Assembly (NCBI GenBank): GCA_024636855.1
Contig: JAGXGG010000098.1
Location: forward strand, 1-59,076
DNA length: 59,076 nucleotides
Reading direction: 5' to 3'
DNA from: Ignavibacteriota bacterium
GTDB taxonomy: Bacteria; Bacteroidota; Ignavibacteria; Kapaibacteriales; UBA2268
This document shows positions 8,532-32,003 of this stretch, one piece after another; the first letter of the stretch is position 1, and each line of letters opens with the position of its first letter. Below the pieces are notes generated by a model. It was given only the letters and a program-made list of their open reading frames with translations, was not told the origin of the DNA and searched no databases. A program made the translations under genes and the position numbers.

Positions 8532-8673
8532 ATTTTATTTTTTGTTTGAGTTTAATCTTTCAATATAGCCTGAAAGTTGACTATAACTAGAGTTTAAACT
8601 ATTTTGTAACCAAAGATGTGGGGAAAGTAAAAAAAAGTAGAATTTATTTAAAAATATTGAAATGAGTTATAAA

Positions 8674-11250
8674 ATGAAAAACATAATTATTGTATGTGCT
8701 TGCCTTTTAATAATAGGTGGTAATCTACGGTCACAAAATATTAAATTCGGAGAATTTGATCATCAGGAAGGGATTAGTTTACCCAGTAATACGGTTGAAA
8801 TACTGAACATCGTTGACCTTAATAATGATGGCAAAGATGATTATATAATTACTGTTAATATTGGAAATAACACCAAAAGCATAGAAATGTATTTAAATTT
8901 CGTTGGGAATAAGCTGATTAAGTTTAACGATAACCCATTTCTAGATATAAAATTGAGTGGTTTTATTTATGACATTATATATCCAATTTATATGAATAGC
9001 GAATATCCAGATTTAGTACTTAAGCACAATGATAATACTCTATTATATAGGAGTGATGGTAATGGAAAATATGAAGATGGGGTAATATTAGTTGATGATG
9101 ATTTTACTTTATATAATATAAGTGCAATAGAGTTGGAAGGTAAAATACAGATATATACCAGTTTGAAGTCAAAATATGAGACTGCCAACTTTATTTTTGT
9201 CTACGACGAATTTGGGAAATTGAATAAGTTCAGAGACATTTATTTTGATGTACCAGAGAAATATACTGACTTCAAATCAATTGACTTGAATAATGATGGG
9301 TACAAGGATTTTGTATTCTATACTTATTCTGATAGTGTTTTGATATATCTCAACGAGGGCAATGGTTATTATAAAAAATCAAAATCATTTTTAATGAAGG
9401 GGTATAACACGAAGTTCCAGGATTTGAATTATGATGGCTATATTGATATAACAAGTATGAATTCTCAATATGAGACTAGAGAAATTTATATGTATATGAA
9501 CGATTCCACTGGAAGTTTTGATTCCGAAAAGATTATAGAAATACCAAGAGAAAGACCTTACTATGACTATTACCTTGATGATTATAACCTAGATGGTATA
9601 TTTGATGTAACTGTATTCGATTACGGTGAAGCTTTAATTGAATCTTATATTAGCACAAATATAGTCAATGTGTTTGAAAATATATACAGCTCTGAGGTGT
9701 TACCAATAAAAATCAACCCTTCTAATTGTCATCTATTTGACTTCAACGGTGATAGTCAATTAGATATCTTATTATCAGGTATTTCCGTTGCAGGTCAGAA
9801 TAATAAATATAAAACTGAAGTATTAGTTAATAACAACGGTGTGTTAAGGAATATAACTGAGAGCCCATTGGCTTGGGAAAGTTATTATCCTAGCAGTGAA
9901 ATAGAACGTGAACTAGATATATTTGACTATGATCAAGACGGAGATGAAGATATATTTTTTTGGAAATCAAACCAAATTAAATACGATACTACTCAATTTC
10001 TAAAAATTTATACTAATAATGGTAAAGCTATATTTAATCTCAATCCGAACATACCACTCCAATCTTCCAGTATTTACACCGACTACGAATGGGCTGATAT
10101 GAATGGTGACGGCTATATTGATTTGGTAGCAGGAACTTTTGATTATAGTGATATTCCTAATGCAAAACCGCGAGTATTACTTAATGATGGAAATTTTAAT
10201 TTTGAATATGACTTTTTCAGATTTAGAACGAATATTAACATCAGTCAAAATGATTCTTTCATTATACTTGATGTTAAAGTAGGTAAGATAAATAATGATG
10301 ATAATGCTGATGTAGTAGCATTTTTCTCAAGTTTCGGTTATTTACTATTAGAGAATATTGATAATAGACAATTGAAAATCTTGAAGAATGAATACATTGA
10401 AAATAGAAATTATTCAAGAATTGAATTACCCGATTTGAATAATGATGGATATAGTGATTTAGTATTATACGAAGCCAATACTAAAGATATGTCATCTGTT
10501 TCTGTAGAAATCAATGATGGGTTTGGTAACTTTACAAGCGTTAGACCAGACCTATTTTCAGATCTAAAATTTACAACTCTTCTATTAGAAGATTATAATA
10601 ATGATAAACTAATCGATATCATTGCTATAAATGAAGAAAACTCATATACAGAAACTCTAATATTTGAGAATATTGGGAACGGAGACTTTATAACTAAAAA
10701 TATGGATTTATTATCTATTTACAGGGATTTAAATATTGATTTTGCTGATATAAATAATGATAGTTATACAGATATTATTGGCTTATCTAAGAGTAGAAGT
10801 ACAGGACGAACCCACTTATTCGTACTAGTCAACGAAGGAAATGGCAATTACACACGGAATTTCATAGGAGAATATTATATAAACAAAGTTTCGAATTTTC
10901 AAGTCAAAGATCTTGATGGTGATGGTCTGCCTGATTTAATAGTTAAGTATGACGGTAAAGTTGACATTCGCAAAAATCTAAGCGGTAAGACAACAATTGT
11001 GAATCAGGGAAAAGAAGATTTATACAAGGTGTACCCTTTGCCCTTTTCGAATAGAATTAATATAAATTCTAAAATGAATTCTATTATTTCAAATATCAAA
11101 GTTTATAATTTAGATTCTAAACTTATTTCTGATAACAGCTATAAGTCAAGTAATTTATCATTTGAGTTGAATGTAGAGACAGGAGTTTACCTTCTTGAAA
11201 TAACTGAGCTAAACGGTAAAAAGTCACTGATAAAAGTCATTAGAGAATAA
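8674..11250 (+). CDS. FG-GAP/VCBS repeat surface protein with T9SS sorting domain
   Basis: 858 aa from the ATG giving MKNIIIVCACLLIIGG, a good signal peptide; an ATG 12 bases upstream is also in frame. The mature chain has at least eleven FG-GAP/VCBS calcium-loop motifs of the form D-x-N-x-D-G-x-x-D, such as DLNNDGKDDY, DMNGDGYIDL, DLNNDGYSDL and DLDGDGLPDL, spaced about 50-100 residues apart. This predicts a beta-propeller or repeated beta-sheet adhesin stabilised by Ca2+. The last 75 residues are a T9SS type A sorting domain (VYPLPFSNRININS, then KVYNLDSKLI, ending SLIKVIRE). The protein is probably displayed at the cell surface. Its 3' end overlaps the convergent glycosyltransferase gene by 11 bp. 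Confidence 0.87.
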   Translation: MKNIIIVCACLLIIGGNLRSQNIKFGEFDHQEGISLPSNTVEILNIVDLNNDGKDDYIITVNIGNNTKSIEMYLNFVGNKLIKFNDNPFLDIKLSGFIYDIIYPIYMNSEYPDLVLKHNDNTLLYRSDGNGKYEDGVILVDDDFTLYNISAIELEGKIQIYTSLKSKYETANFIFVYDEFGKLNKFRDIYFDVPEKYTDFKSIDLNNDGYKDFVFYTYSDSVLIYLNEGNGYYKKSKSFLMKGYNTKFQDLNYDGYIDITSMNSQYETREIYMYMNDSTGSFDSEKIIEIPRERPYYDYYLDDYNLDGIFDVTVFDYGEALIESYISTNIVNVFENIYSSEVLPIKINPSNCHLFDFNGDSQLDILLSGISVAGQNNKYKTEVLVNNNGVLRNITESPLAWESYYPSSEIERELDIFDYDQDGDEDIFFWKSNQIKYDTTQFLKIYTNNGKAIFNLNPNIPLQSSSIYTDYEWADMNGDGYIDLVAGTFDYSDIPNAKPRVLLNDGNFNFEYDFFRFRTNINISQNDSFIILDVKVGKINNDDNADVVAFFSSFGYLLLENIDNRQLKILKNEYIENRNYSRIELPDLNNDGYSDLVLYEANTKDMSSVSVEINDGFGNFTSVRPDLFSDLKFTTLLLEDYNNDKLIDIIAINEENSYTETLIFENIGNGDFITKNMDLLSIYRDLNIDFADINNDSYTDIIGLSKSRSTGRTHLFVLVNEGNGNYTRNFIGEYYINKVSNFQVKDLDGDGLPDLIVKYDGKVDIRKNLSGKTTIVNQGKEDLYKVYPLPFSNRININSKMNSIISNIKVYNLDSKLISDNSYKSSNLSFELNVETGVYLLEITELNGKKSLIKVIRE

Positions 11251-27260: not shown

Positions 27261-28439
27261 CTAATTTATTTTCATTTTCGTTTTCAAATTAACAGGAATT
27301 CCATTTTTGTTGAGTGTTATAGATGTAGTTTTATGCATAAAGTAAGAATATGATACATACAAATAGCCATCATGGCCTCTTTTATTCGTTCCCCAAGAGT
27401 TTTTTACTACGAAGTACTTTCTATCTAGTTTATCTTTGACTATCCCAACTATATGCATACCGTGATCATCTTGAGTAAGATAATTATCAAAATCTTCCTG
27501 TCTTTCTTCTTGAGTTATATTTAGTTCAGTATATATAGAGTCCCATTTCAATTCATCTTTATCCAAGATCATTTGCTTCATATCAGCCGGATTAATCGCT
27601 AGTCCATATTTCGATTCAAAAGACGGTTCCGATACATCAGCACCCCAATCAACAGAATAACCATTTTCTAATGCTTTTTCAGTTATTTGTAGCATCTCAT
27701 TCATTGGAACATTATAAAATTCTCCATGAGAAAAGTTATCTGGTACTTCTAAAACAAATTTATCATAAAAAGGATGGTGAGTAAAAGAAGTTATGTCTAC
27801 AAACTGTTTTGTATCTATTCCTAGATGGTCTCTGTAACTAAGAGGCGTGTACTCTACTCCATTCACTTTAAACTTAGTTGGGGCTTTACCCATATATATG
27901 TCTAGGACTGCATCAAATGCCTTTTTCCATTTTGATGTTCTATTGCTTGCTGGAGTAGCAACTACTCTTTTTATCATATCTTCTAATATACCTGACATCT
28001 CAGCATGATTCAGATATCCATTCTCCGGACGAGTAGAGTATTCTGATTCAGGTACTACACCATATTTCTCTATCGAACGCATAACATCATTTGTTAAAGC
28101 ACCTTCTCCGAATTGAGTTGCCCCATGATAACGTACATATAAGTCCGCTTTTTCTGGGTACATATTTCTAACTATAAACATCTCTGATAGATCTACTTCA
28201 CCCTTACCTTCACGAAGTAATTCTGACTCTATAAACGAATTACCTGCAAATGTCCAACAAGTACCTGTTCTATTCTGATTCTTGACATCTGTAGTTTCTA
28301 CATTGATTATTTTTTCGAATTGATAGACTGAGTCTACTTTGAGCATCATTTCCTCATCTTCTTTATCATCGGAAAACAAGGGAGAATTAGTAGTCACGAA
28401 AATTAGGAGTACTGCTAATGTAATATTTAATAATTTCAT
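27261..28439 (-). CDS. Exported C1-family peptidase (bleomycin hydrolase/PepC-like)
   Basis: 392 aa. A signal peptide (MKLLNITLAVLLIFVTTNSP) is followed by the papain-fold active site: Cys61 in NRTGTCWTFAGNS with the oxyanion Gln upstream (NQN), a late His in DDHGMHIVGI, and Asn in FVVKNSWGTN. The sequence DLSEMFIVRNMYPEKAD and the overall length match the bleomycin hydrolase/aminopeptidase C branch rather than classical papain. Export is unusual compared with cytosolic PepC but seen in Bacteroidota. It probably trims peptides in the periplasm. It stands directly upstream of the AddA-like gene and 73 bp downstream of the barrel gene, so it may share the minus-strand transcript. Confidence 0.87.
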   Translation of the reverse strand: MKLLNITLAVLLIFVTTNSPLFSDDKEDEEMMLKVDSVYQFEKIINVETTDVKNQNRTGTCWTFAGNSFIESELLREGKGEVDLSEMFIVRNMYPEKADLYVRYHGATQFGEGALTNDVMRSIEKYGVVPESEYSTRPENGYLNHAEMSGILEDMIKRVVATPASNRTSKWKKAFDAVLDIYMGKAPTKFKVNGVEYTPLSYRDHLGIDTKQFVDITSFTHHPFYDKFVLEVPDNFSHGEFYNVPMNEMLQITEKALENGYSVDWGADVSEPSFESKYGLAINPADMKQMILDKDELKWDSIYTELNITQEERQEDFDNYLTQDDHGMHIVGIVKDKLDRKYFVVKNSWGTNKRGHDGYLYVSYSYFMHKTTSITLNKNGIPVNLKTKMKIN

Positions 28440-28512
28440 TTTGTTTTATTTTAAAAATTGAAAAAATTAAAATAGTCAAAAAGAAGGAATAAATTGAAAA
28501 TGTGGAAGAGTA

Positions 28513-29496
28513 TTAGAAATTGAAAGTATGAGTAAATCCAAAAACTAGAGTTTGTTCTAATTGTCTGTGGCTATATATTTGTTCATCGTATGTCAGATTA
28601 GCAGAGTATTGCAAACTGAAATACTTGTATTTGAGAGTTGAATAGAATATTCCATTCACAGAAACTTTGCTGACATCCTCGAAAAATGAATCTTTAGTAA
28701 TGGCAGCTATACTGAAATCGGTATAAAAAGAAAAATCTTCAGAAATCATAGTATCATAAGTAAATTTCAATATACCACTATATCCAGTTTCTAAAGTAAA
28801 ATGACTTTGAACATCCGAAAGTGGATTATCATCATCTATGATGAAATCTTTATTCTCTTCTAAAATATATTTATCAGTATAAGTTTGCTGAACAGCATAC
28901 CCAACACCATAAATTATATTAAAACTTGAAGTGTACTCATCATTTTCCCATTTATAGTCTTGACCTAAAAACAAAGTATGATATAGATAAGCTGGGTCTA
29001 AAAAAGAGATAGGGTTCCCATAATTATCATTATTATCCATAGAAGTTTGAAGAACATTGTCAAAAAATAACCTAAGTTGTAATTTCTCGAAAAGGCTCAT
29101 AGATGGCATAATAGAAACCATCAAATTATCTTGGGTAGTTTGTGGGACATCCTCTTTAGAAATAATCTGACCATATTGGGCAGTCACACTAGAATTAAAG
29201 TTAAATGTACTACCGTATATATCTAGCTTAGAGCGAAGTGAACCTAGCCACTGAGCACTTATTGTTTCCTCTCCCCTTTCGTAACTAGAGCTTTGTAGAT
29301 TGAAACCAAGAGTAGGTGAAAGCATGAAATCAATCACGCTTTCACTCTCTTCTATAATTTCTTCTTCTTCATAATCTTCAGAATTGTCCAATGAGTCGAT
29401 TATTTCATCTTCAATGACAACAGCAGTTGAGTCCACTTGCGAATATGCAAACGAGCAAAGAAAAAAGAAAATCAGTGATAATAAATAAATTCTCAT
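28513..29496 (-). CDS. Predicted outer-membrane beta-barrel protein
   Basis: 327 aa. A signal peptide (MRIYLLSLIFFFLCSFAYSQ) and an acidic linker (EDYEEEEIIEESES) precede a series of amphipathic strands alternating aromatic and polar residues. Examples are TFNFNSSVTAQYGQI, FSFYTDFSIAAI, FSLQYSANLTY and a final TLVFGFTHTFNF with a terminal Phe. The terminal aromatic strand is the barrel-insertion signal. It resembles the DUF3078-like barrels of Bacteroidota, function unknown. Its start overlaps the stop of the preceding Asp-rich small protein gene by 4 bp (ATGA type), so the two are probably translationally coupled. Confidence 0.72.
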   Translation of the reverse strand: MRIYLLSLIFFFLCSFAYSQVDSTAVVIEDEIIDSLDNSEDYEEEEIIEESESVIDFMLSPTLGFNLQSSSYERGEETISAQWLGSLRSKLDIYGSTFNFNSSVTAQYGQIISKEDVPQTTQDNLMVSIMPSMSLFEKLQLRLFFDNVLQTSMDNNDNYGNPISFLDPAYLYHTLFLGQDYKWENDEYTSSFNIIYGVGYAVQQTYTDKYILEENKDFIIDDDNPLSDVQSHFTLETGYSGILKFTYDTMISEDFSFYTDFSIAAITKDSFFEDVSKVSVNGIFYSTLKYKYFSLQYSANLTYDEQIYSHRQLEQTLVFGFTHTFNF

Positions 29497-30080
29497 TTAT
29501 CACAAGTTACTTTTATCTTTATTTGTCCGCCTTTCATTGGTGTAATCTCTACCATCCCATCGCAGTCATTATCCTTTCCATCTGTATCTAAATTCGCAGA
29601 ACTCGATGTTTTATTAGACCTAGATGAATTGTGATCTGTAGCCCTAGTACTAGGAGTTGAAGCATCAACTTCTTTAGTAATAGTGACTGGCTTGTACTGA
29701 CGTTTACCAGTCGCCATTCCACTACCAGCCTCACGAGAACTAGAAGCATAATAATCATATCCCTTTTTAGATAGATACATAGATTTACTAGAAAGTTCTA
29801 CACGAATAGGTTTGATTCTAGCTGTTGATTTGGATGATGGGCAAGTAATTTTTTCATTCACTTGATCGCCAATAACGCATCGAACACCATTCATTTCTAT
29901 AGTAACTTTATAATCACCCTCTTTTAATCCTTTTGCTATGAACTCACCCCTACCGTTTGTCTTACCTTTTTTTGTAACACCATTAGGTGACTGTTCTACT
30001 GTTATACCTATACCCGGTATAGGGTCACCAGCGAATAACACAACGGGTAAAGCTAATAATAATATTAATAATTTTTTCAT
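29493..30080 (-). CDS. Asp-rich small secreted protein, array copy A1
   Basis: 195 aa. An 18-residue signal peptide is followed by a CNA-B/carboxypeptidase-regulatory-like beta-sandwich (about 20-100: KGKTNGRGEFIAKGLKEGDY). Next comes a Gly/basic linker (REAGSGMATGKRQ), then a Ser/Asn-rich stretch (HNSSRSNK), an Asp loop (DTDGKDNDCDG) that looks like a calcium site, and a final strand (MKGGQIKIKVTCDK). It is about two thirds identical by eye to copy A2 directly upstream. I know no named family. Overlap with the barrel gene suggests the two products act together at the cell envelope. Confidence 0.72.
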   Translation of the reverse strand: MKKLLILLLALPVVLFAGDPIPGIGITVEQSPNGVTKKGKTNGRGEFIAKGLKEGDYKVTIEMNGVRCVIGDQVNEKITCPSSKSTARIKPIRVELSSKSMYLSKKGYDYYASSSREAGSGMATGKRQYKPVTITKEVDASTPSTRATDHNSSRSNKTSSSANLDTDGKDNDCDGMVEITPMKGGQIKIKVTCDK

Positions 30081-30094
30081 TTAAGATTCCTCAT

Positions 30095-30676
30095 TTATTT
30101 ACAAGTAATTTTCACTTTTAATTGTCCACCCTTCATTGGTGTTATTTCAATTGCTCCATCACAATCTTGGTCGACACCATCATTATCACTATCTGCATCA
30201 GAAGATTCGTTTCCAATTGAACCAATAGCACGTTTTGAATCTGCCTTGCTCAAACCATTCTCCGAACTATTAGTATTCGCCGATGTTTTATGTTGTCTTT
30301 TACCAGTAGCCATTCCACTACCTGCTTCTCGAGATTTAGAAGCATAATAATCATATCCTTTCTTTGATAAATACATTGACTTAGAAGAAAGTTCTAACCG
30401 AATTGGTTTAACAGTAGCTGAGGATTTAGTAGATGGTACAGTGATTTTCTCATTAACTTGATCACCAATAACGCATCGAACACCATTCATTTCTAATGTA
30501 ACTTTATAATCACCTTCTTTCAAACCTGTAGCGATAAACTCACCCCTACCGTTTGTCTTACCTTTTTTTGTAACACCATTTGGAGATTGTTCTACTGTTA
30601 TATCAATACCCGGAATAGGGTCACCAGCAAAAAGGACAATTGGCAATACAAGCAATATTATTATTAATTTCTTCAT
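30095..30676 (-). CDS. Asp-rich small secreted protein, array copy A2
   Basis: 193 aa. It has the same order of parts as A1: signal peptide, beta-sandwich (TNGRGEFIATGLKEGDYKVT), REAGSGMATGKRQ linker, SENG/SKAD-rich segment, Asp loop (DADSDNDGVDQDCDG) and final strand (KGGQLKVKITCK). Its first 120 residues are nearly the same as A1, and divergence is concentrated between the linker and the Asp loop. It is separated from A1 by 14 bp. It arose by recent duplication; function unknown. Confidence 0.72.
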   Translation of the reverse strand: MKKLIIILLVLPIVLFAGDPIPGIDITVEQSPNGVTKKGKTNGRGEFIATGLKEGDYKVTLEMNGVRCVIGDQVNEKITVPSTKSSATVKPIRLELSSKSMYLSKKGYDYYASKSREAGSGMATGKRQHKTSANTNSSENGLSKADSKRAIGSIGNESSDADSDNDGVDQDCDGAIEITPMKGGQLKVKITCK

Positions 30677-30699
30677 TCTAATTTTCTCTTAATTTTCTC

Positions 30700-31266
30700 T
30701 TAATTTTTTGTTTTTACGCTAATTTTAATCCCACCACCACGACCTGTAGTAGCAGAAACTTCTATCATAGCATCATCACAATCATCAACACCATCCCCAT
30801 CATCGTCATCATCTATATTTGCTGATTTTTTATTCGAACGTGATGTGTTATGATTTGCATCTAACCTCTTAACATTATTAGTTTCGTCTATACCAGCTTC
30901 ACCCCTTTCTAGTGTAACGTCACTGTACTTAGTTCTGCCTGGCCTTTTTCTTAATATTAGATCATCACCATCTTTATAGTCTGAAATTTTAGCATTAAAA
31001 AGCATTGGGGTTGCTTTATCTATTCTGCCTTTAGTGTTATTAACACCCAATACTATAGATTTACCATTATTTGTAAGCTTAACATCCCATACGGCATCTG
31101 TTACACCGTCTAGGGTCAGACTCCCCTGACTGTTTAGCTTACCAGATTTGATAGTTTTACCATTTGCATCAACAATTGACACAACAGTTCCTTCCAAACA
31201 GCGAGGAGCTGCTGAGAAAAGTGCAAGTGGTAGCACAAATATTAATATAATTAATAGATTTTTCAT
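30700..31266 (-). CDS. Asp-rich small secreted protein, array copy B1
   Basis: 188 aa from the ATG giving MKNLLIILIFVLPLALFS; an in-frame TTG five codons earlier is less likely because it adds charged residues before the signal. A beta-sandwich (VVSIVDANGKTIKSGKLNSQ) is followed by LRKRPGR and then RGEAGIDETNNVKRLDANHN. An Asp loop (DDDDDGDGVDDCDD) and a final strand (GGGIKISVKTKN) complete it. It belongs to the same architectural family as A1/A2 but to a second subfamily with B2. It is 23 bp from A2. Confidence 0.7.
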   Translation of the reverse strand: MKNLLIILIFVLPLALFSAAPRCLEGTVVSIVDANGKTIKSGKLNSQGSLTLDGVTDAVWDVKLTNNGKSIVLGVNNTKGRIDKATPMLFNAKISDYKDGDDLILRKRPGRTKYSDVTLERGEAGIDETNNVKRLDANHNTSRSNKKSANIDDDDDGDGVDDCDDAMIEVSATTGRGGGIKISVKTKN

Positions 31267-31282
31267 AATTTCAACTCTCAAT

Positions 31283-31879
31283 TTATTTTAAAACAGTAAC
31301 ATGTACTTCTATTCTTCCATTGCCTTTATCAGCTACACTAATAGAAGCATCATCACAGTCATCATCTAGTCCATCACCATCATCATCATCATCGATTGCT
31401 CTTATTCCACCGGCTTGATTTGAACGAGTAGTGTTATGATTAGCATCCAACTTTTTAGCATTATTTGTTTCATCCATACCAGCTTCACTTTGAGCACCTC
31501 TTTTTCCAGTTGCTTGTCCACTACTACCACCTTCTTTTGAATGAGTTCTCCCTGGTCTTTTTCTTAGGATTAGATCATCACCATCTTGATAATTTGACAA
31601 TTTTGATTGATAAAGTAAAGGGGTTGATTTATCTATCCTACCCTTAGTTTTGTTTACACCTAGAACGATTGACTTTCCATTGTTGGATAATTTAACATCC
31701 CAGTTCGCATCCTTCACTCCACTGAGTGTAAGTTTACCTTGGCTATTAAGTTTTCCTTTCTTTATAACTTTTCCATTAGCATCAACAATAGATACTTCAA
31801 TACCTGCAACACAACTAGGTGATGCCGAATATAGTGCCAGTGGAAGCACAAATAATAATACTAATAACAAATTTTTCAT
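31283..31879 (-). CDS. Asp-rich small secreted protein, array copy B2
   Basis: 198 aa, first gene of the minus-strand array. A signal peptide (MKNLLLVLLFVLPLALYS) precedes a beta-sandwich close to B1 (VSIVDANGKVIKKGKLNSQG). Then come LRKRPGR, a linker containing GQATGKRG that links this subfamily to the ATGKRQ element of A1/A2, NHNTTRSN, and an Asp loop (DDDDDGDGLDDDCDD). The last strand is GRIEVHVTVLK. Calcium binding is likely from the loop spacing, though not proven. The promoter should lie in the 180 bp shared with divergent gapA. Confidence 0.7.
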   Translation of the reverse strand: MKNLLLVLLFVLPLALYSASPSCVAGIEVSIVDANGKVIKKGKLNSQGKLTLSGVKDANWDVKLSNNGKSIVLGVNKTKGRIDKSTPLLYQSKLSNYQDGDDLILRKRPGRTHSKEGGSSGQATGKRGAQSEAGMDETNNAKKLDANHNTTRSNQAGGIRAIDDDDDGDGLDDDCDDASISVADKGNGRIEVHVTVLK

Positions 31880-32003
31880 AACAAACTCCTTGATGTTAAA
31901 TATGACATGGGTTAAAATTACATTTTTTTTTATTAAAACAGATAATATTCTTCTGTTATTCTAAAAATAATTAATTCTACTCATTATTCTATTTAGATAC
32001 TAA

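Follow-up and report, generated by a model that had tools for sequence, protein, structure and literature searches.

Tail-tube-type hairpins in the block-exchanged slots of tandem secreted sandwich proteins of an uncultured Ignavibacteria-type bacterium

The described systems that come closest to the locus considered here are of quite different kinds. Two are tubes: the Hcp/TssD tail tube of type VI secretion (PF05638, TIGR03344), for which PMC5874247 reports that mutating loop L2,3 abolishes hexamer stacking, and the gp19-type tail tube of phages and contractile systems (PF06841, TIGR02241). Pertinent also are the CarboxypepD_reg, SdrD_B and prealbumin-like domains and, at the level of gene organization, PARCELs, which according to PMC2996958 are shuffled peptide-coding modules in surface proteins, with one 25-residue repeat and palindromic DNA. 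The locus itself is an array of four tandem genes for small secreted proteins, B1, B2, A2 and A1 in order of transcription from the minus strand, followed by a putative outer-membrane barrel gene and a papain-like peptidase gene. It lies in the window, i.e. the whole 59,076-nucleotide stretch of DNA analysed, which is one contig of a 3.1-Mb draft genome in 110 contigs (GCA_024636855.1, contig JAGXGG010000098.1; the genome is G000 below and its congeners G001-G003). Tentatively, and at somewhat under even likelihood, we read its proteins as display scaffolds whose block-exchanged disordered slots most likely bind polyanions or matrix.

What is shared with each of these systems is partial. Paralogues of types A and C carry the same strand 2-loop 2,3-strand 3 hairpin as Hcp/TssD (SGLPTGKRQHKPxTxTKExD), but the remaining tube fold is absent, a signal peptide is present and no VipB was found in the genome; by our own mapping, this hairpin would correspond to the Hcp loop L2,3. 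B2 has the same RKRPGRTKYSDVTLERG hairpin as the gp19-type tube, though in a secreted sandwich protein, for just some 25-35 residues and with library scores below cut-off. The scaffold sandwich is that of the CarboxypepD_reg-type domains, but here it is host to an exchanged slot, and B1 and B2 are unmatched by PF13620. The likeness to PARCELs is in the shuffling of peptide-coding modules in surface proteins; here the words differ from one another, unrelated families supply some of them, and it is the peptide that is conserved. Large secreted Bacteroidia proteins (L022-L025, L174-L177 and L180) have the same words, of the SRSN, Asp-repeat, ATGKR or HU/IHF-arm kind, but as arrays in one long protein, in six of them as if barrel and words had been fused; no described family was found for these. 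The features of the array are as follows.

31283 to 31879, minus strand: B1, 198 residues (open reading frame list); signal peptide, sandwich, slot (IDKSTPLLY, RKRPGRT, SGQATGKRG, NHNTTRSN, DDDCDD) and C-terminal hairpin
30700 to 31281, minus strand: B2, 193 residues from a TTG at 31281 (open reading frame list); slot with a gp19-like tail-tube hairpin in place of ATGKR
30901 to 30951, minus strand: word RKRPGRTKYSDVTLERG of B2, strand 2-loop-strand 3 of the tail tube, from database matches and alignment to tube genes
30095 to 30676, minus strand: A2, 193 residues; CarboxypepD_reg sandwich, hairpin word that stops after SGMATGKRQHK, no SRSN
30164 to 30340, minus strand: exchangeable slot of A2, from DNA alignment with A1
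29493 to 30080, minus strand: A1, 195 residues; CarboxypepD_reg sandwich, full Hcp/TssD-type hairpin, SRSN word, DNDCDG loop and C-terminal hairpin
29649 to 29747, minus strand: Hcp/TssD hairpin of A1, PF05638 positions 29-65, from a library match below cut-off and a TssD-hairpin model
29613 to 29636, minus strand: DHNSSRSN word of A1 (counterparts at 30832-30855 in B2 and 31418-31441 in B1)
29556 to 29588, minus strand: Asp/Cys loop DTDGKDNDCDG of A1, MopE-like, below cut-off

B2 has an alternative ATG start at 31264-31266, and most searches with it were run with the 187 residues from there. An earlier sequence-only reading had proposed four consecutive genes in two subfamilies that arose by duplication, and the four minus-strand frames together with the 327-residue frame that follows them bear this out, with protein identities of 74% for A1/A2 and 70% for B1/B2 against 36% for A1/B1 and 31% for A2/B2. 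A search of the genome's own proteins with A2 matches just these four genes. All four have a hydrophobic N-terminus with no obvious lipobox, as read by eye; calls of signal peptides and of 'cytosolic' proteins, here and below, follow a hydrophobicity rule whose classes are barely apart (1.86 versus 1.99). Of the four, to all of which that reading gave a CNA-B-like sandwich, A1 and A2 score above the PF13620 CarboxypepD_reg cut-off of 32.3 (35.4 and 35.8 bits), with B1 and B2 unmatched. 'Asp-rich' fits B1 and B2 (21 and 22 Asp) better than A1 and A2 (12 and 13). The motifs it took to be common to all four are not: A2 is without the SRSN segment, and B2 reads VTLERG where the others have ATGKR. 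The ATGKR stretch, in its terms a Gly-basic linker, copies the Hcp/TssD tail-tube hairpin, with the gp19-like one there in B2, so that the link to tail tubes was missed.

Between sandwich and C-terminal hairpin is a slot of 60-100 residues, disordered in the sole model made, that of A1. The model was computed with AlphaFold2 from ten sequences and has a mean pLDDT of 59.4, and just its relative confidence is therefore used: the sandwich (about residues 20-98) and the C-terminal hairpin (174-194) have a pLDDT of 60-89 per 10-residue block, and residues 99-171 are below 50. Among the 15 copies from the genus (that of G009 left out), mean pairwise identity for sandwich, slot and C-terminus respectively is 79, 54 and 75% for type A (n=5), 76, 46 and 54% for type B (n=7), and 80, 41 and 55% for type C (n=3). 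The extreme is the adjacent pair G002_B and G002_X, where the proteins are 91, 27 and 100% identical and the DNA is 92% identical in the last 210 nucleotides of the sandwich, 55% in the slot and 97% in the C-terminal part, with sharp borders. The DNA of A1 and A2 likewise aligns up to the ATGKR codons, poorly after them, and well once more when the Asp loop is reached. One explanation is that a recent duplicate received a new slot, the other that gene conversion evened out the ends, and in either case a block was exchanged; the proximity of the G002_X protein slot to that of G003_X (36%, the next being 33%) slightly favours conversion of the ends. Both the anatomy of scaffold plus slot and the replacement of slots as blocks between near-constant ends are thus well supported. 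A separate observation is that the single paralogue of G009 (L039:2733-3260) seems to switch frame inside its slot, the other frame continuing with HNTTRSN and YNSSRSN; the change is either an assembly error or real.

The commonest word in the slots is the tube hairpin. With the library profile for Hcp, PF05638 (cut-off 23.5), A1 scores 17.7 bits over positions 29-65 of 129, so that a full tube domain is not present, and above the cut-off are G001_C (27.9), the G009 paralogue (31.9) and the G013 protein L112 (27.6, together with CarboxypepD_reg at 33.4, also above its cut-off). TIGR03344 matches in G009 with E=4.1e-10 (39.8 of 58.9 bits), and against the Protein Data Bank (PDB) phmmer aligns the G009 protein with Hcp (E=9e-8) and Hcp3 (E=3.6e-7), and G001_A with Hcp3 (E=0.002). 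A hidden Markov model (HMM) made from 18 TssD hairpins was also run on 16 paralogues, 16,000 shuffles (best 13.2 bits) and 223 control open reading frames. Eight of the 16 paralogues score 27-74 bits and 11 exceed the best shuffle, G002_B (17.3), A2 (16.2) and G001_B (14.8) being the lower ones; A1 has 39.6 bits, E=2.2e-10 in the set of 16,239. Two of the 223 control frames are among the best 40 listed, one being a longer version of the G001_C frame and the other a secreted mosaic from G019. Within the window, then, the hairpin is there in A1, partly so in A2, and not detected by this model in B1 (12.0 bits) or B2 (9.3 bits). The test is not fully independent, because the search that gave its TssD set started from the hairpin of the paralogues themselves; the PF05638, TIGR03344 and PDB matches are independent of that seeding. 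The TssD loci used resemble full-length Hcp and lack a signal peptide; one of them, in G325, is next to a VipB gene.

Across the phylum, the hairpin profile matches 36 of 395 genomes, the present one included (38 matches listed, 30 given loci, 26 with a parsed frame; a second match in G046, C95, is unread). By the rule, 18 of the 26 parsed loci are without a signal peptide, seven have one, and one, the FG-GAP-type L137, was ruled to have none, a closer look at its locus showing a signal-like start. A DC-type acidic loop is in four of the seven secreted proteins and in L137, and in none of the 18. Two further observations concern such proteins. A 1,993-residue FG-GAP-type protein (L179:2312-8293, G122:C6) has, within a repeat, the word for the tail-tube hairpin (AREAGSGMATGRRQHKPV). 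In family f2, from genomes with no VipB match, there are near full-length Hcp-like proteins with signal peptides (L183:4265-4795, L184:1777-2316 and L185:3078-3623), with an inserted Asp/Cys loop in two and with one that ends in SPRSN.

For B2 the source is a different tube family. TIGR02241 matches it with E=4.8e-4 (19.9 of 62.4 bits) and PF06841 with E=0.011 (16.0 of 28.2 bits), which again means no full domain, and a PHROG tail tube matches with E=0.017, below cut-off; the congener copy in G003 has 12.8 bits with PF06841. Searched genome-wide, PF06841 gives 15.7 bits for the present genome, and two of 14 control genomes likewise match below cut-off. Weak matches (E 0.3-3) are to 14 plasmid proteins, five annotated and all five as 'phage tail protein' (four Paracoccus), and to three phage proteins, two annotated and both as 'tail tube protein'. 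Two tube genes that match B2 sit just after sheath genes, the aligned parts being residues 41-74 in one and 50-72 in the other; none of 1000 shuffles equalled B2 against these two, which were picked because they matched B2, with the database search uncorrected for. The gp19-like and Hcp words map to one and the same part of the tube (about residues 40-80 in tubes of 161-173, SGLPTGKR being at 47 of 168).

Possession of a type VI secretion system (T6SS) or extracellular contractile injection system (eCIS) of its own is not supported: the four draft genomes of the genus gave no PF04984 or PF05943 match (TssB and baseplate families not being searched). More widely, Phage_sheath_1 (PF04984) is in none of 36 genomes, own and three congeners included, and VipB (PF05943, E<=1e-3) is unmatched in G000-G003 and matched in two of the 36 (G040 and G046), so that 34 of the 36 relatives searched have neither sheath family. 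An eCIS_core match of 24.0 bits, slightly over the cut-off, in the present genome (G000:C93) is to a separate 322-residue protein with an HELFH stretch. In G002, where neither VipB nor Phage_sheath_1 was matched, a 2,080-residue secreted protein (L196:3013-9255, G002:C47) has a 55-residue eCIS_core fragment with 42.7 bits (cut-off 22).

The tube hairpin is one of several slot words, the others being the basic [DN][HY]N[ST][ST]RSN, the Asp/Cys loop and, in congeners, a weak HEAAHVVQQ. For the Asp loop, in a system that the sequence-only reading took to be perhaps calcium-dependent, the MopE motif (PF11617, cut-off 27) scores 15.5 bits in A1 and at best 19.9, in G013, none being above cut-off. 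The same words recur in large secreted proteins of Bacteroidia, in L022-L025 (Bacteroidetes, Chitinophagales, Chitinophagaceae and Lutibacter; a contig scan of genomes gave at least six loci), in one protein of G538 and in four genomes of family f43, with SREAGSGMATGKR, DHNSSRSNKT, NPLYE and SKKGYDYYA as repeated words. Six (L022, L023, L025, L174, L175 and L177) start, by eye, with a putative barrel, for which the two scanned, L023 and L175, gave no Pfam support. As observed separately, L174-L177 (G435, G515, G492 and G557) are long proteins with DYNSSRSN, Asp repeats, NPLYE and SISKRSARTGRN, three beginning with a putative barrel. The SISKRSARTGRN word of L175, the one protein in the family scan, is like the DNA-binding arm of HU/IHF (TIGR00988 E=1.1e-4, below cut-off): 19 of its 24 PDB matches are named HU or IHF and three more are a 'DNA-binding protein' at the same place, the best E being 0.0015. 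A further word of L175 is like the RCC1 core (30.7 of 22 bits), and since HU/IHF-arm and RCC1-like words also occur, the vocabulary is more than parts of contractile systems. Another large-protein word, PKQTQGATFGEK, matched nothing useful. For SRSN there is no known source, the sole PDB match being a designed repeat protein, from SRSN through the Asp-rich stretch, and other searches with the word matching nothing; a 27-bit SRSN pattern matches 52 of 395 genomes, most probably by chance as a reversed control matches too, and the clusters in G435, G492, G515 and G557 lie in coding arrays.

Codon usage within the words is informative. The two SGLPTGKRQHK copies of G001 differ in six of 11 codons, all synonymously, and SRSN words in arrays likewise have the same peptide with different synonymous codons; because identical words use different codons, selection is probably on the peptide. 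The synonymous divergence, and no short-loop palindrome, led to rejection of a selfish peptide-coding element (PARCEL-like or RPE-like) as the main explanation: among the eight pairs reported in 28400-32000 there is no short-loop inverted repeat. No description of the array or of the vocabulary was found in open-access papers, and, as in the sequence-only reading, which knew no named system with such a layout, no characterised family was found for the whole of it.

Downstream of A1 are two neighbouring genes.

28513 to 29496, minus strand: putative outer-membrane beta-barrel protein, 327 residues, its fold inferred from sequence
27261 to 28439, minus strand: secreted papain-like C1 peptidase, 73 bp downstream of the barrel gene

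The TGA of A1 and the ATG of the barrel gene overlap by 4 bp, within 29493-29496, as had been pointed out, and probable co-expression of array and barrel gene is supported. The label 'barrel' comes from a sequence pattern and the C-terminus of the protein and is putative. Its best match in Pfam, NCBIfam and PHROGs is no better than E=0.03, and its AlphaFold model, with hairpins at 230-327, has a pLDDT of 45.5, too poor for a fold search; a PDB profile search gave nothing meaningful (two profilins at E about 2). Each of the four genomes that the search returned for the genus has the array, with four copies here and 3, 3 and 5 in the congeners. At E<=1e-3, the A2 protein matches eight of 60 genomes, own included, and beyond the genus these are one copy in G009 and weak matches in G046, G019 and G023 (the last a 1,103-residue frame). 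The barrel protein matches 10 of the 60, own included; a profile of it with 12 rows, at E<=1e-10, matches 33 of the 294 genomes in the class, again counting the present one. Of the 42 barrel matches in total, 29 loci were fetched and 28 scored (all but G104), with partner genes judged by eye. Directly upstream of the barrel at 10 of the 28 scored loci, in three families, is a gene for a small secreted sandwich-type protein (G000-G003, G009, G258, both loci of G046, G224 and G262), the sandwich assignment in G046, G224, G258 and G262 being below Pfam cut-offs or with no match. Linkage to the barrel gene, whose conservation in relatives the sequence-only reading had proposed as a check, thus reaches beyond the genus and is not universal. 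The papain-like peptidase gene is on the same strand and in the same order beside the barrel gene in the four genomes of the genus, and the enzyme might process the basic words.

Some further observations were made near these genes. The barrel-upstream sandwich-type protein of G258 (L094:2502-3104) has HNSTRSN and HEVVHPVQSKPG stretches that are, by eye, absent from its G224 counterpart. In G046, Cys-rich repeated frames on the opposite strand (L041:5763-6733, G046:C150) are just downstream of the barrel gene and resemble a tandem repeat. TIGR04183 (type A sorting domain of the type IX secretion system, T9SS; cut-off 23) gives 15.0 bits for B2, 16.5 for B1 and 23.9 for G003_C2, and the array proteins were rejected as T9SS cargo: most of these matches are below cut-off, and all of them fall in the N-terminal sandwich, at about residues 26-71, instead of at the C-terminus. 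Two other proteins in the window, at 1544-2686 and 8662-11250, have C-terminal T9SS sorting-type domains (26.8 and 27.9 bits, cut-off 27), which suggests that the organism uses T9SS.

If the proteins are display scaffolds, sandwich and C-terminal hairpin would be held near-constant by duplication and, probably, gene conversion, with the disordered slot of 60-100 residues between them being swapped as a block and built up from short peptides that are conserved as protein sequence. The scaffold proteins would be made together with the putative outer-membrane barrel as their presumed exporter or anchor and, because of that supposed role, the loops would face outward from the cell surface. Basic words between acidic, cation-bridged loops could then bind polyanions or matrix multivalently, e.g. 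extracellular DNA, polysaccharide or neighbouring envelopes; this ligand is suggested because basic words alternate with acidic loops of cation type and a relative has the HU/IHF arm.

A number of results weigh against this reading. The hairpin score of B1 is inside the range of the shuffles, and the in-window tube matches in Pfam, NCBIfam and PHROGs are all below curated cut-offs or weak. The A1 model gave no PDB fold match at E<=0.001 (best E=0.18), the barrel fold is unconfirmed by model and PDB profile search, and 18 of the 28 scored barrel loci are without a small secreted sandwich-type partner. The eCIS_core-like word HEAAHVVQQ of G002_X scores, as the best paralogue, 17.3 bits with PF13699 (cut-off 22), sub-threshold eCIS_core matches are common (nine of 14 control genomes at E<=1), and the word gave three poor unannotated tblastn matches and none in the PDB, so chance likeness may apply to HEAAH in the paralogues; by eye, G003_X has a similar string. 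The RCC1-like word of L175 is not basic, and the contractile-system theme of the tube-type hairpins is unexplained by a plain polyanion binder.

A bolder proposal, which we consider rather doubtful, is that Ignavibacteria and Bacteroidia share an undescribed class of surface proteins in which words copied from conserved loops of unrelated families (tail-tube stacking loops, the HU/IHF DNA arm, the HExxH of eCIS_core and the RCC1 core; in this genus mostly parts of contractile injection systems) are block-exchanged in barrel-tied scaffolds, and that foreign injection tubes may be recognised, or jammed, by the present array. Contact with foreign tubes, the boldest part of it, is suggested by both tube families giving the same stretch when the four genomes have no VipB or Phage_sheath_1 match, but 34 of the 36 relatives searched have neither sheath family either.

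An unlikely origin, but one that could explain types A and C, is from a secreted Hcp: an exported tube protein would have lost most of its fold, joined with a prealbumin-type domain and then diversified, and a few descendants might still oligomerise. Near full-length Hcp-like proteins with signal peptides are known from the order (L124, L135 and L142, in genomes G117, G185 and G227 without a VipB match), with L117 (G046), L112 (G013) and L140 (G077) as intermediates. However, the scaffold is CarboxypepD_reg-type and not Hcp, the gp19-like word of B2 and the HEAAH word are not from Hcp, IDKSTPLLY in B1 precedes the ATGKR word in reverse of the Hcp order, and the hairpin occurs also in the FG-GAP-type L137.

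Less probable again is that the displayed stacking hairpins are tube mimics that attach to the tail tubes of T6SS, eCIS or phages of foreign origin or cap them, the array being a shuffled decoy shield; it is a possible reading, weaker than that of display scaffolds. The common origin of the Hcp-like and gp19-like words in one tube stretch, the reported need of loop L2,3 for Hcp hexamer stacking (PMC5874247), the eCIS_core fragment of the secreted G002 protein and the scarcity of sheath genes in the 36 genomes would all suit it. Lack of a sheath in the genus is not special, though, because nearly all the relatives searched lack both families, and the HU/IHF-arm and RCC1-like words of the Bacteroidia vocabulary are not parts of contractile injection systems. 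Neutral capture, in which a loosely constrained disordered linker gains functionless fragments by illegitimate recombination, is more improbable still: hypervariable slots, with disorder predicted in A1, and the apparent frame change in G009 fit it, but identical peptides with many synonymous differences suggest peptide selection, and other families of the phylum have these words too. That these are ordinary CarboxypepD_reg secreted proteins with a chance tube likeness from low-complexity basic sequence, as the sub-threshold in-window matches could suggest, is very improbable given the G009 matches, and for the Hcp hairpin chance is largely refuted by the shuffles and control frames.

Should the display-scaffold reading be right, these would be proteins assembled from short conserved words rather than from domains, with the words reused across the phylum and kept by peptide selection. 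The locus with adjacent genes that have near-identical flanks and a replaced slot offers a clean test of exchange. For annotation there is a warning, as a match to 'Hcp' or 'eCIS_core' may in some cases reflect an embedded word and not a secretion system, and for the biology of the group the question is raised of why the stacking loop of a tube is exported by bacteria that yielded no contractile sheath gene.

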